Below, one piece after another: positions 13,274 to 37,985 of a stretch of 64,000 nucleotides of DNA. The DNA is from Clostridia bacterium (GTDB lineage Bacteria > Bacillota > Clostridia > Oscillospirales > Acutalibacteraceae), in assembly GCA_017403185.1 (NCBI GenBank), contig JAFQON010000036.1, positions 186,001 through 250,000 on the forward strand. Reading direction: 5' to 3'. The notes beneath the pieces were generated by a model. It had not been told where the DNA came from, searched no databases, and saw only the letters and a list, made by a program, of their open reading frames with translations. Within the stretch, counting starts at the first letter, position 1. Each line of letters starts with the position of its first letter. The position numbers were made by a program, and so were the translations under genes.

Positions 13274-13302
13274 TTGACTATACCGTGTTGATGTAATATA
13301 AT
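13274..13302 (+). promoter_or_regulatory. Promoter of the 24-kb peptide-modification/polysaccharide operon
   Basis: TTGACT (13274-13279), 17-base spacer, TATAAT (13297-13302), 43 bases before ATG 13346. No internal terminator was seen downstream until 37914, and genes are mostly overlapping or less than 90 bases apart, so this probably drives the whole locus. Confidence 0.75.
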
Positions 13303-13345
13303 TATAGTGTATAAATATATGTTACAGTAAAATGTGGTTAAAAAC

Positions 13346-13828
13346 ATGGAGAAAAACGGACTTGCAGAAAAAACGATAGTTATTCCGGTTGATGAATGGT
13401 ATGGGTTGAGCCTTGACGATACTTGCGTTAAAGTCAAAATCCGTATTACCGGCCACAGTATGCAGCCGTTGATAAGGCGCAACAGGGATTTTGTAACGAT
13501 TCAGCCGCTCAGGCGAAAGGTGCTCAAAGGCGATATTGTTCTTTTCAGAAATGTTGACGGGCGCTATATAGTTCACCGTGTCAGAAGGGTTTATGATGAC
13601 GGGGTGCAGACTATGGGTGATAACCGTCTGAGCCCTGACACAAAAATTCTTGAAAAAGATGTTCTCGGTCTTGTCACTCACATACACAGAGGAAGCAGAA
13701 CCGTTTTTGTTGACACTCGGATCTGGCGCTTGCTCGGGCGCCTTCATATGGCTGCAGCACCTTTAAGAAGAGCCGCTGCGTTTGTTTTCGGACCCTTGAA
13801 AAGGATGCTTGGAAGGATGGTCAGATGA
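13346..13828 (+). CDS. S26/S24-like Ser/His peptidase, set A
   Basis: A small protein (160 residues from ATG 13346; GTG 13334 is an alternative, and neither has a strong ribosome site). It has the signal-peptidase fold markers: ITGHSMQPLI with the putative nucleophile Ser (42 from GTG), LKGDIVLF, YIVHRV with His81 and MGDN. A Ser with a His in HRV, rather than Lys, resembles the ER-type/SipW branch of signal peptidases. No N-terminal membrane segment is visible; the basic, hydrophobic C-terminus (from about residue 125) might bind the membrane. By context it may cleave the leader of the peptide encoded at 14989, which is inference. Its stop overlaps the next gene by 4 bases. Confidence 0.75.
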   Translation: MEKNGLAEKTIVIPVDEWYGLSLDDTCVKVKIRITGHSMQPLIRRNRDFVTIQPLRRKVLKGDIVLFRNVDGRYIVHRVRRVYDDGVQTMGDNRLSPDTKILEKDVLGLVTHIHRGSRTVFVDTRIWRLLGRLHMAAAPLRRAAAFVFGPLKRMLGRMVR

Positions 13829-14958
13829 ATATGACGGACAGTCTGCCGGCAACGCTCACAAAATTGCTTGCAGAGCTTGATGAACGGGGAATAACCGATC
13901 ATCGCCGCTACAGTGCGGTGCGCAATTATCTCAACTTCCGTGCAAGAGAAAACGATATCCCTATAAGCGGAGTTTTTGAGCTTACCCCGTTTTGCAACCT
14001 TGATTGCAAAATGTGTTATGTTCACCTTGAAAAGAATCAGCTTTCCGGCTGTGAGCTGCTTTCGGCAGACACCTGGGAAAATCTGATGTCCGACGCCGCA
14101 AAGCACGGGATGACATATGCGAAGCTCACGGGCGGAGAATGCCTCACCTACCCTCATTTTAAAGAGATATATCTGTTTTTGCGGGAGCTGGGGGTTGAAA
14201 CATCAATTCTTACAAACGGTGTTCTTGTTGACGAAGATATGACCGCCTTCCTTGCTGCAAACCCTCCCGCAAGCATACAGATTACGCTTTACGGAGCCTC
14301 TGAGGATGCCTATGAGCGTGTGACGGGGCACAGGGTTTTTTCAAGAGTTATCGGCAACATAAAAAACATAATTTCTTCAAACCTTCCTTTATCTGTTGTT
14401 GTGACGCCGAGCTCGTTTATGAGCGACGGTGAAGAAATCGTGAGGTTGGTTCATTCGTTGGGGCTGCCCGTAACAATAAACAGCGGGCTGATGTCGCCGA
14501 GAAAAGAAACCGGCAGAGAAAAATCCGATGCCGCCCCCGATATCTATATCGGAATGATGAAGGTAAAGCAGGAGCTTCAGGGCGGTGCAGTTAACATATG
14601 GTCTGATGAAGAGCCCGTGACAGCACAAACAACGGATGTTCACGGCGAGCCTCCGAGGGGCGTTACCTGCGGAGCGGGCAGAAGCACCTTCAGCATTTCA
14701 TGGTGCGGCGAAATGCGGCCGTGCAACACTTTCCCCGGAATTGCCGAAAAAGTTCTTGAAATCGGATTTTCAGAGGCATGGGAGCGGATTAACCGGCAGG
14801 CGAAGGAATATCCCCTGCCGATTGAGTGCGAGAGCTGTAAATATAAAAAAGTTTGTAAACACTGCGTTGCAGAGCACGCATCGGGTTCACCTTCGGGTCA
14901 CGCAAACCCGTCTGTTTGTGAATGGATGCGTAAGGCTGCAGCAGCGGGATTAATATAA
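13825..14958 (+). CDS. Radical SAM/SPASM peptide-modifying enzyme, set A
   Basis: A 377-residue radical SAM protein with the cluster motif C57-x3-C61-x2-C64 in ELTPFCNLDCKMCYVHL, LTGGECLTYP (SAM-binding glycines) and a C-terminal SPASM region with cysteines near 282, 300, 335, 338, 344, 347 and 365. SPASM enzymes with this FELTPFCNLxCxMCY opening typically modify ribosomal peptides (thioether or carbon-carbon links). An N-terminal helical extension of about 45 residues precedes the barrel. The short peptide gene downstream is the likely substrate. It overlaps the preceding peptidase gene (ATGA). Confidence 0.9.
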   Translation: MNMTDSLPATLTKLLAELDERGITDHRRYSAVRNYLNFRARENDIPISGVFELTPFCNLDCKMCYVHLEKNQLSGCELLSADTWENLMSDAAKHGMTYAKLTGGECLTYPHFKEIYLFLRELGVETSILTNGVLVDEDMTAFLAANPPASIQITLYGASEDAYERVTGHRVFSRVIGNIKNIISSNLPLSVVVTPSSFMSDGEEIVRLVHSLGLPVTINSGLMSPRKETGREKSDAAPDIYIGMMKVKQELQGGAVNIWSDEEPVTAQTTDVHGEPPRGVTCGAGRSTFSISWCGEMRPCNTFPGIAEKVLEIGFSEAWERINRQAKEYPLPIECESCKYKKVCKHCVAEHASGSPSGHANPSVCEWMRKAAAAGLI

Positions 14959-14988
14959 CCAAATCATAATTGAACGGAGGAACAGACA

Positions 14989-15144
14989 ATGAAAAAAACT
15001 TATGAAACTCCAGTAGCAGAAAAGGTTAACTTCAAGTATCAGGAGCAGGTTACTGCAAGCAACACCGCATGTATCAGCAGATGGGTTAACATCGGCCTGA
15101 CAGAGTGTGTTGACGGAAACAAGCATCTTGAATATGTCAACTGA
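14989..15144 (+). CDS. Candidate RiPP precursor peptide A (51 residues)
   Basis: A short frame found by reading the gap between the radical SAM and kinase genes. GGAGG (14976-14980) lies at correct distance before ATG 14989. The product begins MKKTYETPVAEKV: Y5-x-x-P8 matches the YxxP leader element recognised by PqqD-like domains in lasso peptide systems. A segment QVTAS near residues 20-24 could mark the leader end. The remaining 27 residues contain Cys28 and Cys40 plus several Ser/Thr. The larger candidate at 25296 in set B starts MKKKYIAP. Core chemistry is unknown; the call rests on position, size, ribosome site and leader similarity. Confidence 0.75.
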   Translation: MKKTYETPVAEKVNFKYQEQVTASNTACISRWVNIGLTECVDGNKHLEYVN

Positions 15145-15152
15145 TACGGCAG

Positions 15153-16271
15153 ATGTTTTACCTTTTACACGGCATACAGCTTGAAAGCAGTGTGCCGCTC
15201 GAATCGTTTGAACCTTTTTTGTCTGACAAAGCCGAAAACATGAAAACGGTTGTTTTCGGTGTTTCAGACGGTGCGTTTTGCGCAGAAAGGTCAGGGTATA
15301 CGGTTGAGCACAAACACATAAATATCACAAAGCTTGATGAAGGCTGGCTTTATTCTTTTCCCGAAGACAGCGTATGCGAGCTTTGGGTTTCCGACGATTA
15401 TTCCGCGATAACCGCTTATAACTCTTTGGCTGAGTTTGACAGCAAAAAGATACTGCCTCTGCTGCGTACGGCGCTTGAATGTGCTGCCGCTGAGCAGGGG
15501 TCGGTGTCGTTACACTCATCCTGCATAAAGCTTGACGGAAAAGCGTTGTGCTTCACGGCGAATTCGGGAGTGGGGAAATCCACAAGAGCCCTGAATTGGG
15601 TTAATGTTCACGGAGCTGAGCTGCTGAGCGGAGACCGCCCGATGATAAAGGCTGACAGCAGCGGAATTTTTGCCTGCGGAGTTCCGTGGGACGGAAAAGA
15701 GCAGATATTTGTCAATGACTGTGTTCCGCTGGCGGCGATTTGCGATATCCGCAGAGGTGAAACAACCCGGGTGAGAAGGCTTTCGTTTAATCAGGCACGC
15801 CGTGTTCTTGCGCAGCAATGCTTTATCCCGATGTGGGATATCGGAGCGGCGGGTGCCGTTATGGCACTCATATCAAAGCTGTGCAGAGAAACTCCCGTTT
15901 ACAGGGTTATCTGCGGGATTGATGAGGAATCGACCCGAAAAGCCAAAGAAATTATTTTTCACCGAAATGAAGAGATAGCAGGGATTGAAGACGATATGAA
16001 AATTAAAAACGGATTTGTACTTAAAAATATTGCGGGCGAAAATATTGTTATGCCTGCAGGCAGCAATATCGGTGCCTTTGACGGAGCGATAGTCCTTAAC
16101 GAGGTTGCTGCATTTATATGGAGTAAAATGGAGGAAAGCGTAAGCAGAAACGAGCTTCTCGGGTTTATACTTTCCGAATTTGATGTTGAAGAAGAAAAGG
16201 CTGCCGCAGATCTGGATGCCCTTATTTCGAAGCTTTCGGATTACGGCGTGATTGAACAAGAAACTACCTGA
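15153..16271 (+). CDS. HPr-kinase-like protein fused to a PqqD/RRE domain, set A
   Basis: A 372-residue fusion. Residues about 1-275 resemble the HprK-type kinase core used in peptide and exopolysaccharide loci: VSLHSS near 121, the P-loop ANSGVGKST (136-144), LLSGDRP near 158 and CGVPWDGK near 176. Residues about 285-370 form a PqqD-like domain (KNGFVLKNIAGENIV, LNEVAAFIWSKM, LISKLSDYGVI), the RiPP recognition element that binds leader peptides. HprK-like kinases in lasso peptide clusters phosphorylate a precursor side chain, so the fusion suggests a kinase that docks on the peptide. ATG 15153 lies 8 bases after the precursor stop without a good ribosome site, so translation is probably coupled. 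Confidence 0.85.
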   Translation: MFYLLHGIQLESSVPLESFEPFLSDKAENMKTVVFGVSDGAFCAERSGYTVEHKHINITKLDEGWLYSFPEDSVCELWVSDDYSAITAYNSLAEFDSKKILPLLRTALECAAAEQGSVSLHSSCIKLDGKALCFTANSGVGKSTRALNWVNVHGAELLSGDRPMIKADSSGIFACGVPWDGKEQIFVNDCVPLAAICDIRRGETTRVRRLSFNQARRVLAQQCFIPMWDIGAAGAVMALISKLCRETPVYRVICGIDEESTRKAKEIIFHRNEEIAGIEDDMKIKNGFVLKNIAGENIVMPAGSNIGAFDGAIVLNEVAAFIWSKMEESVSRNELLGFILSEFDVEEEKAAADLDALISKLSDYGVIEQETT

Positions 16272-16295
16272 TTTTTTACGGAGGCCGGCTGTAAT

Positions 16296-17558
16296 ATGAC
16301 ATATGAATTCCGATATCTGATGCAGCTTTTGGGTTCAGCCTCCACCGGAAAGCCTGCAAATCCGCCTGACCGTGAGCTTGATTGGAGCAGGGTTTTTGAG
16401 CTGACACAGGAGCAGATGCTCGATGAGCTGATTTGGTATGCTTTGAAAACAAACGCCGCACTGAAATGCAGTGAGGATAATTTTCTGTCAGTTGTGCCTG
16501 ACCCGCTGCCTGCAATCATAACCGACAGTGCCGCACGGAGCATGATTGTGTCACTGCTCGAAAAAATGGAGAGCGAAGGCATTCACTCCGTTGTTGTCAA
16601 GGGAATGTCGGTTGCCGACGGCTACGCTTCGCCCGAAGCCCGCATCTCCTCCGATACGGATATACTGATTGCTCCCGAGGATGAAGCAAAGGCTCAGAGG
16701 TTTTTGGCGGCCAACGGCTTCAGGGTTGAGTCCAGATGGGATAACGGGCATCATTTTTCAGCTCACCATCCCCTGATGGGCTTGCTTGAGGTTCACATTC
16801 AGCTTTATGACGATATTGCCGAAGATGTGTGGTTTGCCGATGTTACCGCCGAAGAGCTGATTTGCCAGCAGCACAAAAAGATTTGCACTTCAGACGGTGT
16901 TTATTACACTCTCGGCGATACCGACCACCTTATTTTCATTATTCTGCATATGATAAAGCATTTTATTCTTTGCGGTATGAGCCTGCGCATGATGACCGAT
17001 ACGGCGGTTTTTATGTCATCCAAAAAGGCTTCTCTTGACTTCGGCAGAATGTGGTCGGTTATGAAAAAGCTCAGGTATGACGGATTCCTGAGCTCGGTGC
17101 TCTGGGCAATGGTTGAATACTGCGGATTTTCTGCCGACGATTTTCCCGGGATCGGAGCTTTTGAGCGAGAAAAGGTTGAGCTTATACTTTCGGATGTTGA
17201 AAAAGGCGGATGGCTGGGTAAGAACGACTACTCCGCAAGAAAAGAAAGCTGGCAGGAATACAGCCGTCAGCTTTTTGTAAAGAGAAAAAGCAATATCAGT
17301 TACCATCTGTATATGCTTAATTGGCAGAATACTCTGAAGCTTAAAACATTTTTTCCGCCTAAGGAAAGATTGGTTAAAGATTATCCCGTTCTGAACAGGT
17401 TCCCCCTGCTCATTCCGTTTATCTGGTTACACAGAATAATTTTCAAAAGCATTCCGAGATATATAAAGGCTAAAGAAAAAATAATTTTCAATGAAAATTC
17501 TGTCAGTGCGGAAAGCAAAGAGAGAGTAAATATGTTCCGCACATTGGGAATGCTGTAA
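16296..17558 (+). CDS. PF14907-type nucleotidyltransferase-like protein, set A
   Basis: A 420-residue protein with the signature of the uncharacterized nucleotidyltransferase family: VVVKGMS (about 100-105), SSDTDILI (119-124, the Asp-x-Asp metal pair), then LLEVHIQLYDD near 164-173. Such proteins recur beside HprK-like and PqqD-like genes in peptide and exopolysaccharide loci, and their substrate is not established. The C-terminal half is helical and basic. GGAGG precedes ATG 16296. It is paralogous to the protein at 26834. A role in attaching a nucleotidyl or phosphate-linked group to the peptide or glycan is inference. Confidence 0.8.
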   Translation: MTYEFRYLMQLLGSASTGKPANPPDRELDWSRVFELTQEQMLDELIWYALKTNAALKCSEDNFLSVVPDPLPAIITDSAARSMIVSLLEKMESEGIHSVVVKGMSVADGYASPEARISSDTDILIAPEDEAKAQRFLAANGFRVESRWDNGHHFSAHHPLMGLLEVHIQLYDDIAEDVWFADVTAEELICQQHKKICTSDGVYYTLGDTDHLIFIILHMIKHFILCGMSLRMMTDTAVFMSSKKASLDFGRMWSVMKKLRYDGFLSSVLWAMVEYCGFSADDFPGIGAFEREKVELILSDVEKGGWLGKNDYSARKESWQEYSRQLFVKRKSNISYHLYMLNWQNTLKLKTFFPPKERLVKDYPVLNRFPLLIPFIWLHRIIFKSIPRYIKAKEKIIFNENSVSAESKERVNMFRTLGML

Positions 17559-17593
17559 TTTTTATTGAAATTGATTTTTTGGAGGTGTTGATG

Positions 17594-18325
17594 ATGATTG
17601 ATATTCACTGCCACATTATGCCCGGCGTTGATGACGGCTCGGGAAACATGAGCGATTCAACGGAAATGGCGCAGCTTGCATATAAATCGGGCACAAAAAA
17701 AATAATCGTGACACCTCACTGCAATGTTGACCCGCACAGAAGGAACTTCTGGGATTCCGAGATGGAGAACAGGTTTCTTTCCCTGCAAGCACAGCTGAGG
17801 CTGAAAAACATTCCGGTTGAAATATTCCGGGGGCAGGAGATTTTTCTCTCAGGCGGATTCATTGACGGGCTCAGGCAGGGCAGGTTTATAACGCTTAACG
17901 GCTCGGCATATGTTCTTGCGGAGCTGGATTTCAGAGAAAGCGCCCCGAACGCTTACAGCAAGCTGCACAGGCTTGCCTCTGAAGGGTATGTTCCCGTTGT
18001 TGCTCACCCGGAACGGTATGAATTTGTTCAGGAGCAGCACGATGCCATATATAAAATAAAGGAGACCGGAAGCCTGATACAGGTTAACAAAGGCAGCCTT
18101 AAAGGCTCCTTCGGTTTTCATGCGCAGAAAAAATCTTTTGAGATTATTGATACCCGCCAGGCAGATTTTATTGCCGGTGATGCTCACAGTCAGTACAGCC
18201 GAACCCCTGTTCTTGCGGATGTTCATGAGTTTATCTGCGAGAGGTTTTCTTCGGAGTATGCCGATTTTCTTGTTAAGCACAACCCTCAGAGGGTGCTTGA
18301 TAACGAGAGAATTTACGGCTACTGA
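17594..18325 (+). CDS. CpsB/YwqE-type protein-tyrosine phosphatase
   Basis: A PHP-fold phosphatase of about 243 residues that opens MIDIHCHIMPGVDDGS with the HxH metal motif. It has VTPHCN near 41, FRGQEIF, VVAHPERY near 136 and FIAGDAHS near 195, the pattern of CpsB and YwqE. These manganese-dependent enzymes dephosphorylate bacterial tyrosine kinases that control capsule length, and two such kinases follow. Of the starts, ATG 17594 has the best spacing from GGAGGT (17581-17586); ATG 17591 is also possible. Confidence 0.93.
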   Translation: MIDIHCHIMPGVDDGSGNMSDSTEMAQLAYKSGTKKIIVTPHCNVDPHRRNFWDSEMENRFLSLQAQLRLKNIPVEIFRGQEIFLSGGFIDGLRQGRFITLNGSAYVLAELDFRESAPNAYSKLHRLASEGYVPVVAHPERYEFVQEQHDAIYKIKETGSLIQVNKGSLKGSFGFHAQKKSFEIIDTRQADFIAGDAHSQYSRTPVLADVHEFICERFSSEYADFLVKHNPQRVLDNERIYGY

Positions 18326-18357
18326 TTTTTGCTTTTATGAGAGGACTCTGATTTACC

Positions 18358-19176
18358 ATGAGAATTCTTCGGTTAGCGACCGTTGCACTGTTTGCCGTTA
18401 CACTTTTGATTTTTTCGGTTTTTTTCGTGAGTGAAAAAATCGGAACCGACAGATCACACCCCGTTATTGAGGCTGCGGAGGGTGTGCTTGAGGTTGATGT
18501 TGATGTTACCGACGAGGAGCTGCTTGAAGGTGTTACGGCGTTTGATAAAAAAGACGGAGATATTACTTCGGATATAGTTGTTGAGTCCGTTTCAAGATTT
18601 ATTGAAGGAACAGAGTGTATCGTAACCTATGCCGTTTCGGACAGCGACAACCATGTTGCCAAATGCACCCGTAACATAAGATACAAAAACTATACTCCCC
18701 CGAAGTTTGCAATGAGTGCACCGCTCGTTTATTCCCTTGGGGACACGGTGAACATTCTCGGTTCGGTCGGTGCAAGGGATGTTATTGACGGCAACATAAG
18801 CGATAAGGTTGTTATTTCGGCAACGGATTATAACGACAATGCCGAGGGCGTTTATTCTTTGTCGCTTCAGGTTATGAACAGCAAGGGAGATGCTTCATAT
18901 CTTGATCTCCCCATATATGTTGAAAATATCAGCCTGCTTGCCCCGAAAATTGAGCTTTCGGAATATCTTATATACCTGAAAAAGGGTCAGAAGGCAGACT
19001 TTAATTCCTATGTTTCAAGAATATCCTTCCAAAACGGGGCTGTCGAGGATGCGGCGCTCAGAATATCGACGGACTGTAATTTTGATGTTCCCGGAACATA
19101 CAGCGTTCATTATTACGCGACCCGCGCCGAAGGGCATCAGGGCCACACCGTTCTGACCGTTATTGTAGAGGAGTAA
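18358..19176 (+). CDS. Membrane-anchored protein with DUF5011-like immunoglobulin repeats
   Basis: A 272-residue protein. One N-terminal membrane segment (residues 5-25) is followed by three Ig-like modules of roughly 75-85 residues. The first shows the DUF5011 pattern FDKKDGDITSDIVV and CIVTYAVSDSDNHVAKCTRNI. The second repeats it as ARDVIDGNISDKVVISATDYN with GVYSLSLQV, and the third ends CNFDVPGTYSVHYYATRAEG. Such modules commonly occur in extracellular proteins of Clostridia. Its place between the phosphatase and the Wzz-kinases suggests a surface accessory role in polysaccharide assembly. No enzymatic motif is seen. Confidence 0.7.
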   Translation: MRILRLATVALFAVTLLIFSVFFVSEKIGTDRSHPVIEAAEGVLEVDVDVTDEELLEGVTAFDKKDGDITSDIVVESVSRFIEGTECIVTYAVSDSDNHVAKCTRNIRYKNYTPPKFAMSAPLVYSLGDTVNILGSVGARDVIDGNISDKVVISATDYNDNAEGVYSLSLQVMNSKGDASYLDLPIYVENISLLAPKIELSEYLIYLKKGQKADFNSYVSRISFQNGAVEDAALRISTDCNFDVPGTYSVHYYATRAEGHQGHTVLTVIVEE

Positions 19177-19182
19177 CCCGAC

Positions 19183-20679
19183 TTGAAAAAGATAAATTCT
19201 AAACTGATGCTGTCTTTTGAGTTTCACAGCCTTCTGAAAGATGTGTTATACAATTTCTGGTTGATAATTCTGGCAGCTCTGATTGCCATTATGGGTGTAT
19301 ATATTGCGGAACGGAGCGTATATAAGCCCGAATACACAAGCTCGGCAACCGTTGTTATCAGAGCAAAGGCGAGCACATCGGGCGCATACACCAACTTTTC
19401 GGCTTCATCGGAAATAACCAAGATTTTTTCTGATGTTTTCGTTCAGCCGTCAATGAAGAAGCTTGCAGCAAGAAATATCGGGGAGGACAGCTTTCAGGGC
19501 ACCCTCTCGGCTGCCGTAAACGGAGATACCAACCTCATGACCATAAGCGTTACGGCATCCTCCGCAAAGCTTGCCTATAATCTGCTTTCTTCTGTTCTTG
19601 AAGTGTATCCGCATACCTCCGAGGATATTTTTTCCGATGCGGTTATTGATATTCTTGTTGACCCGCAGATGCCCTCATCACCGTCAAACAAGGTTACCTT
19701 TTCGGCAAGGTGGTCCATTGCACTCATAGCCGCAATGCTGATGGGCGCAGCGATTGTGCTCATATCCCTGCTTCGAGAAACGGTAAAAACTCAGGAAATG
19801 TTTGAGGAATGCGTGGAGTCGAAGCTTATCGGAACGATTATTCACGAGCATCCCCATCTTTCATTCAGGGAGATGCTGCTTAAAAAGAAAAGGGCGCTGC
19901 TGATAAATGATGCCTTTGCAACCCTGAGATTCTCTGAGGACTATCAGAAGATCGCAACAAAGCTTGAATATATGTATCAGAACGGCGGCAATAAAATTTT
20001 TGCAATAACAAGTATTGCCGAAAATGAGGGCAAATCAACCGCTGCCGCCAACATTTCAATTGCTCTTGCGGGCAGAGGTTACCGTGTTATTCTTGCTGAT
20101 TTTGATTTTCATAAGCCCTCAATTTACAAAATATTTGATTTTAAGGACCGTAACGGAGTTGAGCTGTGCGATATTCTTTCGGGCGAAATAAGCTCACGCG
20201 AATTCAAAGCGGAAAGATATAAAAAGAGCAGTCTTTATCTGGCGGTCAGCAGAACCTGCAGAAAAGATTCGTCGGAATGGCTTGACGGCGAAGCAACAAA
20301 CGATGTTATCAACAGGATGCGTGAAGAGGCTGACTTTGTGATTATTGACACGCCGCCCATATCCGTTTCGGCAGATGCAGTCAGCATAATAAAAAAAGCA
20401 GACAAGGCACTGCTCGTAGTCAGAACAGACTGCGTTTCCATTGCCGATATAAACGATACCATAATGTCATCGGCAGAAGCGGGTGCTGAGTTTGCGGGTT
20501 GTCTGTTTAACGATATGCACAAATCCGTTACTCTTCTCGGGCAGATGGGTGCCGACGAAGGCGGATATTACGGGCATAAATACGGTATTTATAAGCACTA
20601 TGCCGACCACAACAGGCAGCTCTTATCCGATGAAAGCTTCCGGAATTACTCCGCAAGCGACAGGTCGGACACTCTGTAA
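19183..20679 (+). CDS. Wzz chain-length determinant fused to a BY-type tyrosine kinase (1)
   Basis: A 498-residue fusion starting at TTG 19183 (AGGAG upstream). The N-terminal Wzz part has membrane segments at about 24-44 and 172-195 enclosing an external region. The cytoplasmic kinase part has Walker A near 277-287 (AENEGKST), Walker A' ILADFDFHKPS and Walker B VIIDTPPI. The tail is tyrosine-rich (GGYYGHKYGIYKHY) and would be the autophosphorylation cluster. The family controls polysaccharide chain length. A Wzz-kinase single chain is usual for proteobacterial Wzc, whereas Firmicutes normally split it (CapA/CapB). Confidence 0.9.
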   Translation: MKKINSKLMLSFEFHSLLKDVLYNFWLIILAALIAIMGVYIAERSVYKPEYTSSATVVIRAKASTSGAYTNFSASSEITKIFSDVFVQPSMKKLAARNIGEDSFQGTLSAAVNGDTNLMTISVTASSAKLAYNLLSSVLEVYPHTSEDIFSDAVIDILVDPQMPSSPSNKVTFSARWSIALIAAMLMGAAIVLISLLRETVKTQEMFEECVESKLIGTIIHEHPHLSFREMLLKKKRALLINDAFATLRFSEDYQKIATKLEYMYQNGGNKIFAITSIAENEGKSTAAANISIALAGRGYRVILADFDFHKPSIYKIFDFKDRNGVELCDILSGEISSREFKAERYKKSSLYLAVSRTCRKDSSEWLDGEATNDVINRMREEADFVIIDTPPISVSADAVSIIKKADKALLVVRTDCVSIADINDTIMSSAEAGAEFAGCLFNDMHKSVTLLGQMGADEGGYYGHKYGIYKHYADHNRQLLSDESFRNYSASDRSDTL

Positions 20680-20769
20680 AATAAGCAGAATACTTTTTAA
20701 AACTAAAACAAAGAAAACGGCTTGAAAAGCGGCCGGCTTCTGAAGTTTTCGGAATGGACAGAATAGTTT

Positions 20770-22236: not shown

Positions 22237-22238
22237 GA

Positions 22239-26359: not shown

Positions 26360-26362
26360 TTT

Positions 26363-26815: not shown

Positions 26816-26833
26816 TTGTTACGGAGAGAAAAA

Positions 26834-29406: not shown

Positions 29407-29409
29407 GGC

Positions 29410-30570: not shown

Positions 30571-30571
30571 A

Positions 30572-31657
30572 ATGAAAATAGGCATTCTTACTCATTATCA
30601 GGTTGAAAGTCACGGTGCTTGTCTTCAGCACTATGCACTTACAAGATTTCTTAAGGACAGAGGGCATGAGGTTTATACCCTCTCTTACAACAAAAGCTTT
30701 GATTTTGCAAACAACTATGAGCAAAAGAAGTTTTCGTTGGGGATAAGGTCTGTGCCTTTCTATATAAAAGAATATTTGTTTAAGCAGGGTCCCGTGTTTA
30801 TCAGAACAATGGCAAAAAAGCATTCGCTTTTACAAAAATTCAATAAAAAGCATTTCTCCTTTTTGCCTTACTGTGACTGCGGCGTTGATGCTGCCGTTAT
30901 AGGGTCTGATGAGGTGTGGAGCCTTCAGCTCGGTGCGAATATAATGATGTACGGTCACGGCGTTGATGCAAAAAAATTAATATCCTATGCGCCGAGCTTC
31001 GGGCAGACCGACATTGAGAGAATTGAAAAATACCATTGCAGAAGCCTGATTGAAAACGGGCTCAAGAGCTTTGACTCTCTTTCGGCAAGGGATATAACAA
31101 GCTGCAGGATAGCGGAGGAATTGACCGGCAGAGAGGTTTCACTTGTTTGCGACCCTGCTTTGCTTTACGGCTTTGAAAAAGAGCTGTCCGGCTATCATCG
31201 CATGAGCAAGGAAAAATATGTTGTTGTTTATGCCTACAACAGCAATATGAATGAGCCGGAACGGGTTGAAGCAATCCGCAGATATGCCGCGTCAACGGGC
31301 GCAAAGGTCTTTTCCGTTGGCGGTTTTCATAAGTGGTGTGACAAGCAGATTGCGTGCGATCCCATTGATATGCTGTATTGGTTCAAGGGTGCGCAGGCTG
31401 TTTTTACCGACACATTTCACGGAACCATTACGGCTTTTCTGACTCAGACCCCCATGGCGGTTTATGTCAGAAACACCAACAATGTCAAGCTTGACCATCT
31501 GCTGAGTGTGCTGAGCCTTGAAAGCCGCAAGGTCATGGAGGACAGAAGCATTTTTGAAATTCTTGAAGAAACCGTTGATTACAGCCGTATCAGCAAAGAA
31601 TTTGAACCGTTCAGAAAGGCCTGCGCAGAATATCTCGAGCAGTCCTTAAGTAAATAA
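30572..31657 (+). CDS. Polysaccharide pyruvyl transferase family protein
   Basis: A 361-residue protein of the PF04230 family, with an N-terminal GILTHYQVESHGACLQHYALTRFL segment, AAVIGSDEVWSLQ near 110, ISYAPSFGQTDI and the C-terminal TDTFHGTITAFLTQTP. Members transfer pyruvate from PEP to glycan hydroxyls, or act as glycosyltransferases, and the name is by family. It begins two bases after the preceding glycosyltransferase. Confidence 0.9.
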   Translation: MKIGILTHYQVESHGACLQHYALTRFLKDRGHEVYTLSYNKSFDFANNYEQKKFSLGIRSVPFYIKEYLFKQGPVFIRTMAKKHSLLQKFNKKHFSFLPYCDCGVDAAVIGSDEVWSLQLGANIMMYGHGVDAKKLISYAPSFGQTDIERIEKYHCRSLIENGLKSFDSLSARDITSCRIAEELTGREVSLVCDPALLYGFEKELSGYHRMSKEKYVVVYAYNSNMNEPERVEAIRRYAASTGAKVFSVGGFHKWCDKQIACDPIDMLYWFKGAQAVFTDTFHGTITAFLTQTPMAVYVRNTNNVKLDHLLSVLSLESRKVMEDRSIFEILEETVDYSRISKEFEPFRKACAEYLEQSLSK

Positions 31658-31675
31658 AAGCGAGGAGAAAATACA

Positions 31676-32839
31676 TTGAAGCGCCTTTTATATATTGCTT
31701 TTAAGGATTTTTCAAACCTGCATTTCGGAGCGAACGCAAAGGTTCTTTCACAGTGCAGGGCTTTCGAAAAATTCGGTTATGAAGTAGATATGATTTGCAG
31801 GCAGGGCTCAAAAACAGTCCTGATGAAAAACAGCGAAGCCCCCCGTGTTATATCCGAGCACGGTGATTTTATAAACAACAAGCTTGTTAAAAGCGTAACA
31901 AGCAAGCAAAGGCAGATAAGAGATATCATCAGCTTTGTTAAAGACAAGCAGTATGATGCCTGTTATGTGCGCTATGATTTTTCGGATTCGGGCTTTATAA
32001 AGCTTCTGAAGGATCTCAAGGGTCGCTGCGGCAAAATTGCGCTCGAGCTTCCGACTTATCCCTATGAGGATGAAAACAAATACGGAATTCTTTCTAAAAT
32101 GAAGATGCAGGTTGACTTTTTCTACAGAAAGAAGCTTCATAAATATATTGATTTTATTGTTACTTTTTACGCAGGCTATGAAGAGCTTTTCGGCATACCT
32201 GTTATTGTGGTGCCGAACGGCTTCGATTTTTCAACCATGCAGCTTGCCCAAGCTCAGCTTCCGCAGGATGCCGTTCATATCGTGGCGGTTTCCTCCATGC
32301 GTGAATGGCACGGCTACGAGCGCTTTATTGAAGGCTTACATAATTATTACTCGGAAGAGAAGCCGGGTAAGAAAAACTTTATTCTTCATCTGGTCGGCAA
32401 CGGAAGAGAATACGGCAAATATAAGGAGCTTGTTGAAAAATACGGCCTTGAAGCCCATGTTGTTATGGAGGGCGCAATGCACGGCGAAAAGCTTGATGAG
32501 CTTTATGAAAAATGTGCCCTGGGAATTGACTCCCTTGCACGCCACAGAAGCGGAATTGATGTTCTCAGCTCGCTCAAAAGCAGGGAATACGGTGCAAAAG
32601 GAATTCCTATGATAAATTCATGCAAAATCGATATTATCGGGGAAGATTTTCCGTATCTGCTCAGGGTTCCCGCAGATGAAAGCCCGATTGATATTGATGC
32701 CGTCGCCGAGTTTTATGACAAATGCTGCGGCAGCGGGAAAAGCAGGCTCGAAATCGGAAAGGAAATCCGTTCATATATCGAGCAAAGAAGCTCTATGGAG
32801 AATGTTATGCTGCAGGTTGCCGAGAAATTTGAAAAATGA
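31676..32839 (+). CDS. Glycosyltransferase (GT4-like)
   Basis: A 387-residue GT-B fold glycosyltransferase that starts at TTG 31676 with GAGGAG upstream. Features: NLHFGANAKVLSQCRAFEKFG near the N-terminus, PNGFDFSTMQL near 180, VSSMREWHGYERFIEG and ILHLVGNGREYGKY, and a late KSREYGAKGIPMI in place of the usual EX7E. Divergent from better-known families, so donor sugar cannot be given. Confidence 0.8.
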   Translation: MKRLLYIAFKDFSNLHFGANAKVLSQCRAFEKFGYEVDMICRQGSKTVLMKNSEAPRVISEHGDFINNKLVKSVTSKQRQIRDIISFVKDKQYDACYVRYDFSDSGFIKLLKDLKGRCGKIALELPTYPYEDENKYGILSKMKMQVDFFYRKKLHKYIDFIVTFYAGYEELFGIPVIVVPNGFDFSTMQLAQAQLPQDAVHIVAVSSMREWHGYERFIEGLHNYYSEEKPGKKNFILHLVGNGREYGKYKELVEKYGLEAHVVMEGAMHGEKLDELYEKCALGIDSLARHRSGIDVLSSLKSREYGAKGIPMINSCKIDIIGEDFPYLLRVPADESPIDIDAVAEFYDKCCGSGKSRLEIGKEIRSYIEQRSSMENVMLQVAEKFEK

Positions 32840-32899
32840 TATTCCGCAATTCCGGGGCTTGCTGCGGTTGTATGATTCTGTTCAGCTTAAGGAGAAAAA

Positions 32900-34150
32900 A
32901 TGAAAAAACGATTATTGGTGCTTTTTGCAAAAGGTTTTCCGTATAACCTGAGTGAACCGTTTTTGGATAATGAATACCCGCTTTATAAAAATTATTTTGA
33001 TAAAACCGTAATTATTACGGGCTGCAAAAAGAACGAAAAACCGACAAGGCAGATAACAGACCCAACAATTGAGATTATACCCGACCACACATTGAGCAAG
33101 GATGCTTTTTCTCTTATCGAAGCTTTGCCGTGGCTGCTGACGGATAAATTTTTTTACAGGGAGACAGCTGCGCTTATTTTTCGCAAAAAGTTCTCTTTTA
33201 AAAAGCTTTATGCTTTACTGATTACAGCCTTGTGCGGCAACCACAGAGCCCTGCAGGCATATCGGTTTATAAAAAAGAATCCCGGGTATTCCGTTGATGT
33301 GATATACGGATATTGGCTCAATATTCCCGCATATGCCGCATTAAGGCTCAACAAAAAGCTCGGCAACAAAGCCCGCACGGTGTCACGTGTGCACGGGTTT
33401 GACCTTTATGTTGAAAGAAGCCGTATTTCATATCTGCCGTTTCAGGAGCAGATATACAACAACATTGATGAGATTGCCTCAATATCCGAAAACGGAAAGA
33501 AATATCTTGAAGACAGGTTTGGGGATAAGGGCAAGGTCTCCGTTTTCCGTTTGGGCGCGCTGGACAGAAATCTGCGCAACCCGACGGGCAGCAGAGAAGT
33601 GTTCCGCATTGTTTCGTGCGCAAGAGTCATCCCCCTCAAACGCCTGACACGAATCGTTGACGCCTTGAAATCAGTAACAAACAAAGAGGTTGTCTGGACA
33701 CATATCGGAGACGGCGAGGATTTTGAGAAGCTGAAAAGCTATGCGGCAAAAGAGCTGCCTGAAAATGTTAAGGCTGATTTCAAGGGCTTTGTTCCGAATG
33801 CGAAGGTCTATGATATATATGCGCAGACCCCGTTCCATGTGTTTGTTAATGTGAGCGAAACAGAGGGGGTGCCCGTTTCGATTATGGAGGCAATGAGCTT
33901 TGGCATTCCCGCAGCAGCAACCGCCGTGGGCGGAACACCGGAGCTTATTGATGACAAGAAGAACGGCTTTCTTTTACCGGCGGATTTTACCGATGCTGAT
34001 CTTACCGCTTGCATCACGGCTTTGATGAATATGACGGATGAACAGTATAATGATATGAAAATTGCCGCAAGAAAAAAATTTGAAGACAGCTACAGTGCTG
34101 TTCCCAACTACACCCGCTTTGTTGAACATATTTCTGACAGGAGAAAATAA
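32900..34150 (+). CDS. Glycosyltransferase (GT4-family)
   Basis: A 416-residue glycosyltransferase. VSRVHGFDLYVERSR lies near 155-170, the C-terminal donor-binding domain has IVSCARVIPLKRLTRIVDAL and THIGDGEDFEKL, and the EX7E motif appears in ETEGVPVSIMEAMSFGIPAAATAVGGTPELI. A good AGGAG ribosome site precedes ATG 32900. Position in the operon makes it the third glycosyltransferase acting on the repeat unit. Confidence 0.92.
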   Translation: MKKRLLVLFAKGFPYNLSEPFLDNEYPLYKNYFDKTVIITGCKKNEKPTRQITDPTIEIIPDHTLSKDAFSLIEALPWLLTDKFFYRETAALIFRKKFSFKKLYALLITALCGNHRALQAYRFIKKNPGYSVDVIYGYWLNIPAYAALRLNKKLGNKARTVSRVHGFDLYVERSRISYLPFQEQIYNNIDEIASISENGKKYLEDRFGDKGKVSVFRLGALDRNLRNPTGSREVFRIVSCARVIPLKRLTRIVDALKSVTNKEVVWTHIGDGEDFEKLKSYAAKELPENVKADFKGFVPNAKVYDIYAQTPFHVFVNVSETEGVPVSIMEAMSFGIPAAATAVGGTPELIDDKKNGFLLPADFTDADLTACITALMNMTDEQYNDMKIAARKKFEDSYSAVPNYTRFVEHISDRRK

Positions 34151-34152
34151 AA

Positions 34153-36411
34153 ATGAAGCATATAGCAACACTTACAACTCACGCTGCACTGAACTACGGT
34201 GCGGTGCTGCAGGCTTACGCTCTTCACAAGTATATCGGTGATCTTGGCTGTAAATGTGAGGTGCTGAACTATGTTCCGGAGCATGTTGAAAGAAGCTATG
34301 AGCTGTTTTCCGTGCCGAAAAATCCGAAAGGAGCGGCACTGTCGGCGTTTCAGCTGATTAATTACTCAAAGCGCAAGCTTCGTAAAGAGAGATTTGCAGC
34401 CTTCAGAAAAGAATATCTCTGCCTGTCCGAAGAAAAAATCAAAACTCATAAAAAGCTTGTTGAAGAAACCGACCGTTATGATCTAGTGGTTTGCGGCAGC
34501 GACCAGATATGGAGCCCTGTGCTTCACGGCTTTGATGAAGCGTATTTTCTGTCATTCCCGAATGTTAAAACCCGCAGGATTTCTTATGCGGCAAGCTTCG
34601 GGCAGGATATCATAGACGATAAGCATATGGCGGAAATCAAGCGGCGTCTGGCGGGCTTTTCCGATTTTGCGTGCAGAGAAAAATCGGCTGAAAAAATTAT
34701 CAGCGAGCTGACAGGCAAAGAGCCGCATCCGGTTCTTGACCCCGTTTTTTTGATTGAACCCTCGGAATGGCTCAAAATAGCCAAGCCGGTCAACAAAAAA
34801 AGCCCGTTCAATCTTGCTTATTTTTTATCAAATCCCGGAAATTCTCCTCATGTATTTAAAAAGTATTCCGAAAAGAGCGGCAGAAGGGTTTTGTCAATCG
34901 GTTTTTCTCCCCGTGATTTCAAATACGGAACAGACTGCGATTATTCTCTCGGTCCCTGTGAATTTATAGATGCAATTGCTTCTGCGGATTTTGTGCTCAC
35001 AAATTCTTTTCACTGCACGGCTTTTGCAATTTTATTCGGCAAGAATTTCTACACAAGAATCAGCGAATCAAAGAATTCAAGAAACGACAGAATGATAACG
35101 CTTCTCAAAGAGCTTGGTCTTGAGGACAGAGTTTATACCGACAGCCGGGCGGAGGAGCTTGACTTTGATAAAAAGATTGATTACGAGGCAGTCAACGCCC
35201 GCCTTGAAGAAAAAAAGAAAGCCTCAAAAGCTTATCTGACCGATATTATTTCAAACCTCGCAACCGAGGAAAAATTCAGAATAACAGAGGGCGACTGCTG
35301 CGCCTGCGGCGCCTGCCTCTGTGCTTGCCCGAAAGAGGCAATAAAAATTGAAAAAAACGAAAACGGTTTCTATTATCCTTATATAAACGAAGAATCCTGT
35401 ATAAGGTGCGGAAAGTGCAGAACCGTCTGCCCCGTCAACAATCGGCCCAAAGGCGAAAGCTGGGAAAACGGTGAATATCATGCCCTTTGGTCAAACAACC
35501 GTATTGAGCGTTCCGAAGGCTCCTCAGGCGGAGCATTCGGGCTTATTGCGGATGATGTTATCAGTCAGGGCGGAGTTGTGTTCGGTGCGGCATATTCAGA
35601 GGATTTCAGGTCTGTTTATCAGACGAGCACCGAAAAGGTAAGCCTTAAGGATTTGAAAAAATCCAAATATGTTGAAAGCTATACCGGTGATGTTTTTCTT
35701 CAGGTGAAGAATGAGCTCGAAAAAGGCAGACCCGTGTTTTATTGCGGCACCTCATGCCAGATTGACGGCTTGATGAGTTTTCTCGGCAAAAGCTATACCA
35801 ATCTCATTACCTGCGATTTTCTTTGCCACGGTGTGCCGTCGGCAGGCATATATACAAAATATATTGATAATTTAGAAAGTAAATACGGAAAAATCGAAAG
35901 CATTGATTTCCGCTCCAAAGCCTTCGGCTGGAAGGCATACTGCACAAAGGCGGAATTCGAATCGGGTAAAACATATCTGAAAACATTGTTCCGTGACCCT
36001 TATCTGAGGCTGTTTTTTGAAAACAATATTCTGCGGGATTCGTGTTACGGCTGCAAGCGCCTCGATAACAGCAACGCAGACCTCACCATAGGCGATTTCT
36101 GGCGTGTTTGCGACACCGATATTCCGGATACCAATGAAGGCATATCGCTTGTCTGCGCCCATACGGCAAAGGGCAGAGAGGTGACGGAAAAGCTTATTGC
36201 TTCGGGCAGATGTGAGGTTCACAGGCTTGAAAAATCAAGCTGCTCCTATGCGTATAACAAAAATCTCCGCAAACCGCAGAGCAGAAATTCGGGCCTGAAA
36301 AAGGCTGTCGGATGCACGGATTTGTTTGAAATGAAAATATCGGGCAAAAAAAAGGTAAAGGGGTACCTTTACCTTGCAAGAGCCGTGCTTGATAAGGTGC
36401 AGACTAAATGA
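34153..36411 (+). CDS. Pyruvyl-transferase-family domain fused to an FrhB/FdhB iron-sulfur protein
   Basis: A 752-residue fusion. Residues 1-340 are a second PF04230 protein (LTTHAALNYGAVLQAYALHKYI, VVCGSDQIWSP, TNSFHCTAFAILFG). Residues 375-430 form a two-cluster ferredoxin: C382-x2-C385-x2-C388-x3-C392 and C416-x2-C419-x2-C422-x3-C426. Residues 435-750 resemble the coenzyme F420 hydrogenase beta subunit/FrhB domain (EGSSGGAFGLIADDV, CGTSCQIDGL, CDFLCHGVPS, CYGCKRL). These two proteins are often neighbours in Clostridia polysaccharide loci. The fused form implies they act together, perhaps in redox-dependent glycan modification; the reaction is unknown. Confidence 0.9.
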   Translation: MKHIATLTTHAALNYGAVLQAYALHKYIGDLGCKCEVLNYVPEHVERSYELFSVPKNPKGAALSAFQLINYSKRKLRKERFAAFRKEYLCLSEEKIKTHKKLVEETDRYDLVVCGSDQIWSPVLHGFDEAYFLSFPNVKTRRISYAASFGQDIIDDKHMAEIKRRLAGFSDFACREKSAEKIISELTGKEPHPVLDPVFLIEPSEWLKIAKPVNKKSPFNLAYFLSNPGNSPHVFKKYSEKSGRRVLSIGFSPRDFKYGTDCDYSLGPCEFIDAIASADFVLTNSFHCTAFAILFGKNFYTRISESKNSRNDRMITLLKELGLEDRVYTDSRAEELDFDKKIDYEAVNARLEEKKKASKAYLTDIISNLATEEKFRITEGDCCACGACLCACPKEAIKIEKNENGFYYPYINEESCIRCGKCRTVCPVNNRPKGESWENGEYHALWSNNRIERSEGSSGGAFGLIADDVISQGGVVFGAAYSEDFRSVYQTSTEKVSLKDLKKSKYVESYTGDVFLQVKNELEKGRPVFYCGTSCQIDGLMSFLGKSYTNLITCDFLCHGVPSAGIYTKYIDNLESKYGKIESIDFRSKAFGWKAYCTKAEFESGKTYLKTLFRDPYLRLFFENNILRDSCYGCKRLDNSNADLTIGDFWRVCDTDIPDTNEGISLVCAHTAKGREVTEKLIASGRCEVHRLEKSSCSYAYNKNLRKPQSRNSGLKKAVGCTDLFEMKISGKKKVKGYLYLARAVLDKVQTK

Positions 36412-36430
36412 TTTGGCGGTATTATTTAAA

Positions 36431-37891
36431 ATGAAAGCTGAAAAAAAGAACTCCTTTCTGAATGATTTTTTTACTCTCGGAGCGGGAACATTTTTATATC
36501 TGGTTGTAGGTGTTATCGGCACTCCCATAATCACCAGACTGGTTGACCCCGTTGATTACGGCAGGATGTCCATGATAACCGTTTACAGCGGCATAGGAGT
36601 CCTCGTTTGCGGTCTCGGTCTTGATCAGACACTTGCACGCTTTTTCTATCGGGATGAAAGCGTTGATTTTAAAAGGAAGCTTCTGCAGTTCTGCTGCTCC
36701 GTTCCTTTGCTTTTTGCGGCGGTTCTGAGCGTGCTGCTTTTTGTGTTCCGTTATGTTTCGTCATTTTTCGGGCTTGAGATGATTTCGCTTACCGAGCTTG
36801 TTCTGATTATATTGAACACAATCGCTCAGCTTCTTCACAGGTACGGAATGCTGATTTTAAGGCTGCGTTATTCAACCAAAATGCACTCGGTTGTAAACAT
36901 ACTCCAGAAAGCGTCTTATATAATATTGACGGTTGTGCTTGTGTGCTCAACAAGCGTAGACCATTTTCTGATACTTGCGGTTTCAACAATATTCAGCGGA
37001 TTTTTTGCCTTTTTTATTGAGGCGGGTCATGAGCGGGATTTGTGGAGACCGGCACCCGGCAATTTCAAATTATCCGTGAGCAAAGGCGAGCTTTTGAAAT
37101 ACAGCATCCCCCTCATGTTTTCGGGCGGAATTTCGATGATATTCAATTCGTTGGACAGGCTGTTTATCAACCGCTACTGCACTCTTGCGGATGTTGGTGT
37201 TTATGCAAGCGCAATAAACCTGATGGCTGTTTTTTCTGTTATAAAAACATCCTTCAACGCCCTGTGGATGCCCTCCGCCGTTAAGCATTACGAAAATAAT
37301 CCGGAGGATAAAAAATTTTATCAGCAGGGCAACGCCTTTATATCGGTGCTGATGATAGTGTTCGGTGCCGCAGTGGTGCTTTTCAAGGATTTGTTTGTTC
37401 TTTTGCTGGGAGCTGAATATCATGAGGCTTCAAAGATAATTCCGTTCCTTATGTTCGAACCGATTATGTATACCGTTTCGGAAACAACGGCAACGGGAAT
37501 TGTTGTTCAGAAAAAATCGGCTTATCAGCTTGCCGTGTCAGCCATATCCTGCCTTCTCAACCTTTTGGGCAATTGGCTGCTGACTCCGGTTTTAGGGCCG
37601 CAGGGTGCGGCAATTTCCACGGGAATTTCTTATATTGTGTTTTTTGCAATCCGAACATACTTTGCCAACAAAGTGTTTTATGTTGATTACAAGCTGTCAA
37701 GATTTGCGGTTTCAACCGCTGCGCTGCTTCTCTATTCCGCTTACGGAAGCTCGCACAGCTTTTCTCTCGTTCAGGTGGCAATGTTCCTCGGAGTGACTGC
37801 CGTTACCGTGTTGGCATACAGAGAATATATACCGTTTGCAATCAATTACGGAAAAAGCATGGTTTTAAAGCTGTTGAAAAAGAAGAAATAA
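36431..37891 (+). CDS. Oligosaccharide flippase (Wzx/MATE-type)
   Basis: About 486 residues from ATG 36431; the frame is open earlier, but the conserved MKAEKKNSFLNDFFTLGAGTF fits a flippase N-terminus split around residue 10. It has about 12-14 hydrophobic segments, TPIITRLVDPVDYGRMSM near residue 35-52 and FNSLDRLFINRYC, as in Wzx proteins that move lipid-linked repeat units across the membrane. It is the last gene of the operon. No Wzy-like polymerase gene was found in the operon. Confidence 0.9.
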   Translation: MKAEKKNSFLNDFFTLGAGTFLYLVVGVIGTPIITRLVDPVDYGRMSMITVYSGIGVLVCGLGLDQTLARFFYRDESVDFKRKLLQFCCSVPLLFAAVLSVLLFVFRYVSSFFGLEMISLTELVLIILNTIAQLLHRYGMLILRLRYSTKMHSVVNILQKASYIILTVVLVCSTSVDHFLILAVSTIFSGFFAFFIEAGHERDLWRPAPGNFKLSVSKGELLKYSIPLMFSGGISMIFNSLDRLFINRYCTLADVGVYASAINLMAVFSVIKTSFNALWMPSAVKHYENNPEDKKFYQQGNAFISVLMIVFGAAVVLFKDLFVLLLGAEYHEASKIIPFLMFEPIMYTVSETTATGIVVQKKSAYQLAVSAISCLLNLLGNWLLTPVLGPQGAAISTGISYIVFFAIRTYFANKVFYVDYKLSRFAVSTAALLLYSAYGSSHSFSLVQVAMFLGVTAVTVLAYREYIPFAINYGKSMVLKLLKKKK

Positions 37892-37913
37892 GCAAAAATG
37901 AATAATTAAAGCA

Positions 37914-37985
37914 GCAGGGGCAGCCCTGCGTGGCTGCCCCTGAATTCTGCAGATGTTTCGGGCGATCACGCAGGGCTGCCCCTGC
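37914..37985. repeat. Nested inverted repeat at the operon end
   Basis: GCAGGGGCAGCCCTGCGTG (37914-37932) is exactly inverted at 37967-37985 (19 bp, 34-base loop). Inside the loop GCTGCCCCTG (37933-37942) is the reverse complement of CAGGGGCAGC (37915-37924), so the left arm can pair with either partner. It lies between the convergent flippase and NamZ-like genes and may act as a terminator for both, or be a small repetitive element. Confidence 0.85.

Follow-up and report, generated by a model that had tools for sequence, protein, structure and literature searches.

We analysed a 64,000-nucleotide stretch of DNA from a Clostridia bacterium of the family Acutalibacteraceae (GenBank assembly GCA_017403185.1, contig JAFQON010000036.1, positions 186,001 to 250,000; hereafter the window) and found that two of its gene sets, A (13334-17558) and B (22239-28000), form two cassettes of the kind that makes ribosomally synthesized and post-translationally modified peptides (RiPPs), both within one run with capsule genes. 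We consider it probable (about 0.7) that these cassettes work like those for linear polyphosphorylated peptides (LPP; Popov et al., Nat Commun 2026, PMC13381572), extended by a radical S-adenosylmethionine (SAM)/SPASM-type enzyme, and that they are functionally part of a surface-polysaccharide operon. That a single capsule operon contains two LPP-like cassettes, each with a radical SAM enzyme, is well supported by sequence comparison in its parts and in their linkage; the chemistry and the role of the cassettes we infer. What we say of LPP draws on parts of the cited report, and what we say of lasso-peptide kinases on parts of a review (PMC9266682). LPP clusters (lppAKBSDN) were first encountered in Bacilli, within loci for capsular polysaccharide, and encode the precursor LppA, the HprK-like LppK, the RiPP recognition element (RRE) LppB, the SipW-like LppS, the exporter LppD and the nucleoside triphosphate (NTP) transferase LppN. 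Ser3 of the core is polyphosphorylated by LppK, and the leader is cut by LppS, aided by LppB.

The run extends over positions 13334-37891 and holds 23 genes, all on one strand. Set A is followed by CpsB, an Ig-like gene, two Wzz-kinases, an ABC exporter, set B and the sugar-assembly genes (Table 1). The original prediction, made from this DNA without database searches, had seen two RiPP-type pathways in a polysaccharide operon, and Pfam and NCBIfam matches place the genes it claimed, including the sugar transferase, three glycosyltransferases, two pyruvyl-transferase family proteins and flippase downstream of set B. Between the two sets it had listed CpsB and the two Wzz-kinases, which are present; an Ig-like gene also lies there, after CpsB and before the Wzz-kinases, and set B is headed by an ABC exporter that it had left unnamed. 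It had further proposed one promoter and continuous overlaps. A single transcript for the whole run is plausible; all genes are on one strand with gaps of 90 bp at most, and 7 of the 22 junctions overlap. The candidate promoter at 13274 has 11 of 12 consensus bases and a 17-bp spacer, a second site scoring 11 lies at position 22800 within a gene, and promoter-like sites in 13150-28200 are in no excess (23 found versus 21.7 expected from shuffles). The source is a 2.4-Mb draft genome, estimated to be 80.3% complete, in which the window belongs to a 255-kb contig.

The two S26-type proteins have archaeal signal peptidase I (TIGR02228) as their best NCBIfam match, at E 7.9e-12 and below the cut-off for set A, whose protein also matches Peptidase_S24 (E 1.3e-6), and Ser/His/Asp motifs can be recognized by eye in both. 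In relatives of the set B radical SAM enzyme, the CxxxCxxC cysteines of the Radical_SAM domain (Cys36, Cys40 and Cys43) are invariant, as are the C-terminal SPASM-like cysteines across 13 aligned relatives; the set A pattern was assigned by eye. The SPASM label given earlier depends on this cysteine pattern; neither protein matched the Pfam SPASM model at E <=0.01. The two nucleotidyltransferases match PF14907 at E 3.1e-32 and 3.6e-43. The HprK-like kinase and the PqqD-type domain listed earlier for each set are separate genes in set B and form one fused open reading frame (ORF) in set A. A profile of 15 RREs from the loci studied here matches the solved TbiB1, PbaB1, TfuB1 and LppB (LppB at E 1.9e-7). 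The residue aligned with the Tyr-binding Asp70 of LppB, as placed by residue spacing, is Asp in 15/15 RREs, and the position of LppB Asn33 holds Asn in set A and Ser in set B. Two further PqqD domains occur elsewhere in the window's genome (L057 13551-14924 and L056; G000:C36 and C13), and the C36 stretch also has a distant radical SAM gene.

Each set contains the predicted short peptide gene with an MKKxYxxP start, preceded in both cases by a GGAGG ribosome-site match. As in RiPPs, the leaders appear conserved and the cores faster-evolving, mean identities being 57% for leaders (first 24 residues) and 16% for cores in set A, and 64% and 40% in set B. Precursor B is under purifying selection, its dN/dS being 0.05-0.21 in the 7 of 8 pairs that allowed a calculation (dN over dS is 0.03 over 0.64 for L040/L041 and 0.12 over 0.84 for L037/L098; dS exceeds 1.4 in the five other pairs). 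The positions that do not vary among six set B precursors include Tyr5, Pro8, Ser24, Cys49, Tyr53 and Cys89, and across all eleven the Ser is offset by one in L039. A boundary Ser, 15-17 residues past the leader Pro, is found in 20/20 A/B precursors, as against 10/35 other radical SAM-linked precursors (p 7e-8); since each of A and B is a single clade, the counts do not represent independent events. Terminal Ser residues are absent from the A/B precursors (0/20), and phosphorylation of a C-terminal Ser in the window peptides was rejected on this ground. The other radical SAM-linked precursors end in Ser in 26/35 cases, versus 28/619 larger background proteins (p 5e-28); 6 of the 35 have both a boundary and a terminal Ser and 5 have neither. 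Precursors from loci whose kinases keep both catalytic aspartates (D-D) have the boundary Ser in 6/6 and the terminal Ser in 0/6. The strict MK..Y..P rule behind these counts removed 12 of 67 leader-motif ORFs; about 7 of the removed ORFs look genuine, 5 of them with a terminal Ser. By analogy, the Ser positions resemble known targets of HprK-like kinases, namely LPP Ser3 (one residue nearer the Pro) and the C-terminal Ser of lasso peptides. No NCBIfam model matched the two window precursors or 10 related ones, a PDB search with precursor B returned one weak, unconvincing match, and its AlphaFold2 model, from a six-row alignment and with no partner, was poor (pLDDT 44).

The original prediction had named a neighbourhood search as the test that could refute it; the test did not do so, as other Clostridia were found to have the gene set too. 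With the radical SAM protein of set B as query against 300 genomes drawn from its family, we found relatives in 38 of them, at 52 places; further loci came from a scan of named genomes, limited to the best 80 of 501 relatives, and near-identical loci were merged between collections only if their sequences were identical. Set B has at least ten further kin (L037-L041 and L097-L101), each with Wzz-kinases upstream. In L037-L041 the radical SAM enzyme is 55-62% identical and CpsB is also present in four of the five; L097-L101, from the best 80 of 501, comprise one locus from an Oscillospiraceae metagenome-assembled genome and four from gut metagenomes of deer or sheep. The order Ig-Wzz-Wzz-ABC-PqqD-radical SAM-precursor-HprK is kept in 9/10 set B relatives. 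Set A has at least five kin (L077, L101, L154, L169 and L175). L101 holds both sets, with set A inserted between the exporter and the set B PqqD gene and not ahead of CpsB. Two precursors occur in 5/6 set A loci, A plus B in the window and L101, two of type A in L154, L169 and L175, and one in L077, a distribution that suggests a two-peptide system.

In trees made by a quick method with SH-aLRT support only, clade B has 11 entries (support 99) and clade A 6 (98) among 124 radical SAM proteins, and among 121 kinases clade A has 6 (100) and clade B 11 (86). Clade B consists of the identical eleven loci in both trees, and the clade A loci match except for L154, which adds two radical SAM proteins, and L077, which is in the kinase tree only because its radical SAM gene is in pieces. 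With such congruent clades, the cassettes look inherited as units. The sets had been called doubled; there are indeed two cassettes, but A and B fall into separate supported clades, and a recent duplication was rejected. Conserved order, congruent clades and the dN/dS of precursor B together argue that the cassette is more than chance. More distant cassettes lie on contigs labelled Nitrospirae, Desulfobacterota-type, Omnitrophota, Aminicenantes, Planctomycetota, Acidobacteria and one methanogen, all from uncultured-genome bins. Among cultured organisms, Faecalitalea cylindroides ATCC 27803 (L109) and Ruminiclostridium cellobioparum (L141) have a related cassette. Some loci are unusual. In L077 (8269-12103; G253:C56) the radical SAM and the kinase gene each have one in-frame TAG, consistent with either decay or an unusual reading of TAG. 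L108 (Collinsella ihumii) has a pair of radical SAM genes, each next to a Ser-ending precursor, with kinase, peptidase and ABC matches on the other strand. L171, on a Methanomicrobiales contig, has PqqD, an S26-type peptidase, a run of radical SAM domains and a weak kinase-model match, and is a possible archaeal cousin.

We compared the active sites of the HprK-like proteins. By sequence the kinase assignment is weak: the set A protein has no Pfam HprK match and reaches NCBIfam HprK_rel_B at E 3.8e-6, and the set B protein matches Hpr_kinase_C at E 3.9e-4, both under the curated cut-offs. The assignment is carried by the predicted fold of the set B protein (HPK-B), which is that of PEPCK/HprK (pLDDT 91.6), with PEPCKs as the best structural matches. 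Where HPr kinase/phosphorylase has His-Lys-Asp-Asp, both window proteins have His-Lys-Gly-Asp. With one of four catalytic residues lost, phosphorylation is no safe assumption. The first Asp is replaced by Gly in 85/90 radical SAM-linked kinases (those of the window included; mainly Firmicutes), in which His and the Walker Lys are kept, as is the second Asp in nearly all. It is absent from 88/90 radical SAM-linked kinases and present in 12/16 that are not so linked (p 7e-11), the latter, defined by no match >200 bits within 6 kb, being a small, non-random sample drawn by a search with the set A kinase. Two of these 12 D-D loci, L082 and L084, have a more distant radical SAM match nearby (128 and 60 bits), L084 being also counted among the six D-D locus precursors, and three of the 4 exceptions (L058, L061 and L120) have a radical SAM gene 6-7 kb off. 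At least two changes of the first Asp are forced on the kinase tree. Radical SAM cassettes from other phyla keep D-D in 13/15 kinases. The Firmicutes bin is crude, with one Collinsella inside, and misalignment led to the exclusion of 2 of the 123 kinase ORFs. Kinase-PqqD fusions in L058, L061, L067 and L068, where an NTP transferase and large ABC proteins are also encoded, have Tyr-Asp for Asp-Asp, a third active-site variant.

It is possible, although we hold it at less than even odds, that the HprK-like proteins do phosphorylate Ser and that the products are phosphorylated, perhaps glycosylated, radical SAM peptides, that is, LPP plus one step. The boundary Ser of the A/B precursors and the terminal Ser of most other radical SAM-linked ones lie near or at known targets (PMC13381572, PMC9266682), the remaining catalytic residues are retained, and the predicted fold fits. 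This reading is opposed by the loss, in nearly all radical SAM-linked members of the Firmicutes bin, of the Asp reported as needed in lasso kinases (PMC9266682). At slightly lower odds, it is also possible that the homologue, having lost the base, is no longer a Ser kinase and instead serves as an ATP-binding presenter, or passes phosphate to a group needing no deprotonation, such as a carboxylate or a group made by the radical SAM enzyme. In favour of such a changed enzyme are the association of the Asp loss with a radical SAM partner, the two or more changes forced on the tree and the PEPCKs as best structural matches. However, the Ser at the known target position is still conserved, D-D persists in the cassettes of other phyla, and the association depends on a phylogenetically clustered label and on the small comparison sample.

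The link to capsule genes extends beyond the window. Of the 52 radical SAM places, 12 have CpsB within 8 kb, against 0.52 expected if unlinked; when A/B-clade cassettes are set aside, 6/44 do, against 0.40 expected (p 4e-6). Capsule genes adjoin set B in 11/11 loci and set A in 3/6. The exporter family (>=450 bits) is present in 26/38 genomes with a radical SAM relative and in 4/262 without (p 3e-24). We also inspected ten capsule loci, chosen, not at random, from CpsB matches with no radical SAM place on the same contig. Six of them (L177, L178, L179, L181, L182 and L185) have a window-type exporter, five after the Wzz-kinases and one beside CpsB, and each of these six genomes has a radical SAM relative on another contig. 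No ABC gene of the exporter family was found in six mapped 12-20 kb cassette stretches of five of these genomes (L051, L054, L062, L064, L066 and L072), a mapping that did not extend to the cassette contig of the sixth genome or to two further ones of G108. A tree of 42 high-scoring exporters places the proteins from cassette-free capsule operons among the cassette-linked ones. The window itself has one ABC exporter in the run, ahead of set B, and set A has none of its own. This distribution supports a working link of peptide export to the capsule operon. PF14907-type nucleotidyltransferases were also seen in capsule operons without an adjoining peptide cassette (L179 12856-14106 and L183 9754-10962), in agreement with the guess of the LPP authors that LppN needs a partner outside the core cluster (PMC13381572).

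An unlikely explanation is that of co-location only, capsule loci being variable islands that gather mobile cassettes and the peptides being common bacteriocin-like RiPPs, functionally unconnected with the polysaccharide. In relatives, the slot that separates the sugar transferase from the capsule core block indeed holds other genes (judged by eye to be of NDP-sugar epimerase, aminotransferase or deacetylase type), 40 of the 52 radical SAM places have no CpsB within 8 kb, and LPP itself is described as having a history of patchy gain and loss (PMC13381572). Against this, capsule genes stand beside every set B locus and half of the set A loci, and the exporter remains in the capsule operon of six genomes that have their cassette elsewhere.

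On our favoured reading, LPP-like cassettes with a radical SAM enzyme in a surface-polysaccharide operon, the PqqD-type RRE would bind the YxxP leader and present the precursor, and the radical SAM enzyme would make a radical-derived change in the core, a crosslink or similar. The HprK/PEPCK-fold protein might act on the boundary Ser24 or have a related ATP-dependent role, a step made doubtful by the Asp-to-Gly change. The signal-peptidase-like enzyme, if it behaves as LppS does, would cut the leader off near residues 21-23, and the PF14907 protein may, like PsmN of pseudomycoidin, attach a sugar or, alternatively, a nucleotide. The ABC protein would export the product, which would act at the cell surface together with the polysaccharide, hinting that such peptides partner the bacterial coat. 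Phosphorylation and sugar or nucleotide transfer are reasonable ideas by analogy, because PsmK and PsmN (PMC9266682) and LppK (PMC13381572) act on Ser. A more speculative scheme, which we consider improbable, has the two radical SAM peptides pairing up in the cell coat, the base-less PEPCK-fold enzyme activating another group and the nucleotidyltransferase joining peptide to polysaccharide sugar in a peptide-glycan conjugate.

Several observations weigh against the favoured reading. All HprK-family sequence matches of both kinases are below cut-offs, and both proteins have lost the first Asp along with most radical SAM-linked homologues. The boundary Ser is mostly at Pro+16 in A/B precursors and at Pro+15 in LppA, and the C-terminal Ser used by lasso kinases is missing. 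Of the LPP motif YxxPxVLxHQxIxFETxxS, the YxxP and the boundary Ser are present in the A/B precursors and the middle (HQxIxFET) is absent; because the leaders do not follow the motif beyond YxxP, we call the cassettes LPP-like and do not file them as LPP. The likeness of the RRE to LppB is by profile, where TbiB1 outscores it, and a single-sequence search reached LppB at E 0.64 only. Near the cassette, no S26-type gene was found in 5/10 set B relatives (L037, L039, L097, L098 and L099) and no nucleotidyltransferase in 3/10 (L037, L097 and L098). The exporter, since it also occurs in cassette-free capsule operons, may serve the polysaccharide. Related sequences with few independent origins underlie the counts. 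For LPP itself, the parts of the report used here describe an lppN deletion in which nothing visibly changed, and establish no final product or role (PMC13381572).

The cassettes make the role of capsule-linked phosphopeptide RiPPs testable in a second lineage. The exporter is shown to stay in capsule operons even with the peptide cassette elsewhere, and the Asp-to-Gly swap that accompanies the radical SAM partner poses a clean enzymology question. Table 1 gives the features of the run. Downstream of it (38001-41381) lie a NamZ exo-muramidase and a GNAT acetyltransferase gene on the opposite strand, and then a NAGidase gene.

Table 1. Features of the run, with positions in the window
Feature	Position	Strand	Basis
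Candidate promoter TTGACT-17-TATAAT, upstream of whole run	13274-13302	+	Consensus match, weak
Set A archaeal-type signal-peptidase-like leader peptidase (LppS-like)	13334-13828	+	TIGR02228, Peptidase_S24; SMxP, HR, GD motifs by eye
Set A radical SAM enzyme, clade A	13825-14958	+	Pfam E 2.1e-18; CxxxCxxC, SPASM-like cysteines
Set A precursor, 51 aa	14989-15144	+	YxxP leader, Ser24 at boundary, 2 core Cys, C-terminal Ser absent
Set A HprK-like kinase homologue with C-terminal PqqD/RRE, one fused ORF	15153-16271	+	GD replaces DD
Set A PF14907 nucleotidyltransferase (LppN/PsmN-like)	16296-17558	+	Pfam; DxD by eye
CpsB/CapC phosphatase	17579-18325	+	Pfam
Ig-like domain surface protein, recurrent in capsule block	18358-19176	+	Pfam, relatives
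Wzz-type chain-length protein fused to tyrosine-kinase-like domain, copy 1	19183-20679	+	Pfam
Wzz-type/tyrosine-kinase-like protein 2	20770-22236	+	Pfam for the ATPase domain; likeness to copy 1 for the Wzz part
ABC exporter without C39 domain (LppD-like), heads set B	22239-23978	+	ABC_membrane and ABC_tran
Set B discrete PqqD/RRE (LppB-like)	23975-24244	+	Asp74 aligns with LppB Asp70
Set B radical SAM enzyme, clade B	24241-25299	+	Pfam E 5.8e-27; SPASM-like cysteines
Set B precursor, 96 aa	25296-25586	+	Conserved leader, Ser24, two invariant core Cys
Set B HprK/PEPCK-fold kinase homologue	25577-26359	+	GD replaces DD
Set B archaeal-type signal-peptidase-like leader peptidase (S26-type)	26363-26815	+	TIGR02228 E 1.2e-7, below cut-off
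Set B PF14907 nucleotidyltransferase	26816-28000	+	Pfam; DxD by eye
Bacterial sugar transferase	28000-29406	+	Pfam
Glycosyltransferase 1	29410-30570	+	
Pyruvyl-transferase family protein	30572-31657	+	
Glycosyltransferase 2	31676-32839	+	
Glycosyltransferase 3	32900-34150	+	
Pyruvyl-transferase domain fused to 4Fe-4S and FrhB-type (F420-hydrogenase-beta) domains	34153-36411	+	Pfam
Polysaccharide flippase	36374-37891	+	Pfam

We compared the cassettes with known systems. With paeninodin and pseudomycoidin (PadeK, PsmK, PsmN) they share an HprK-like kinase, a PqqD-type B1 protein and a nucleotidyltransferase, the latter reported in those systems to add hexoses to phospho-Ser, with a Ser of pseudomycoidin phosphorylated by PsmK and hexosylated by PsmN (PMC9266682); unlike these, the window has radical SAM enzymes, and its precursors are without the C-terminal Ser. 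A paeninodin-like lasso cluster, which would share the kinase, nucleotidyltransferase, PqqD and leader motif, was rejected as highly improbable, since neither an Asn-synthase-like cyclase nor a transglutaminase-like B2 protein (sought by Pfam scans only) is among the Pfam matches of the run, and the one PF00733 (lasso cyclase family) match in the window's own genome is sub-threshold and outside the run. No PF00733 match above the cut-off lies within 20 kb of the searched cassettes in 13 genomes. SynChlorMet systems (TIGR04248-TIGR04251; ScmC-F) bear a weak likeness, having radical SAM/SPASM and PqqD-related proteins together with an HprK-like match (ScmC), but membership was rejected, as ScmC-F scores are far under curated cut-offs (for example, ScmE 76 versus 400 bits in set B). 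The SPASM peptide maturases SkfB, PqqE, mycofactocin MftC and AlbA share the radical SAM core and SPASM-like cysteines, and among solved structures SkfB and PqqE come closest in sequence; the listed NCBIfam matches, however, are all below curated cut-offs (best 25 versus 59), and the precursors fit no NCBIfam model.

The closest likeness is to LPP, and the earlier statement that no described system combines these genes does not stand, as LPP clusters in capsule loci share the chassis minus the radical SAM enzyme (PMC13381572). A literature search of titles and abstract starts found no description of this gene combination; the terms radical SAM, rSAM, SPASM and Clostridi are absent from the main text of PMC13381572, and the peptidase and RRE terms searched for do not occur in PMC10885120. 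LPP-like loci with D-D kinases and no A/B-type radical SAM gene occur in the same bacterial family, in part in the same genomes (L085-L088; G292, G230, G177 and G175), and no PF00733 match above the cut-off was found on their stretches. The window cassettes differ from LPP, so far as the parts of the report used here describe it, in the added radical SAM enzyme, in there being two cassettes per operon, in the kinase-RRE fusion of set A and probably in the Gly-Asp of their kinases. They are also of a type found in Clostridia and, more distantly, in other phyla, whereas the LPP report studies Bacilli. In common are the leader peptidase, an RRE, an HprK-like kinase homologue, the NTP transferase, an MsbA-like exporter, YxxP leaders with variable cores, the placement in capsular polysaccharide loci and the lack of a cyclase. 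By gene content, a recently described kind of RiPP is widened to Clostridia, perhaps to other phyla, with radical SAM chemistry added.

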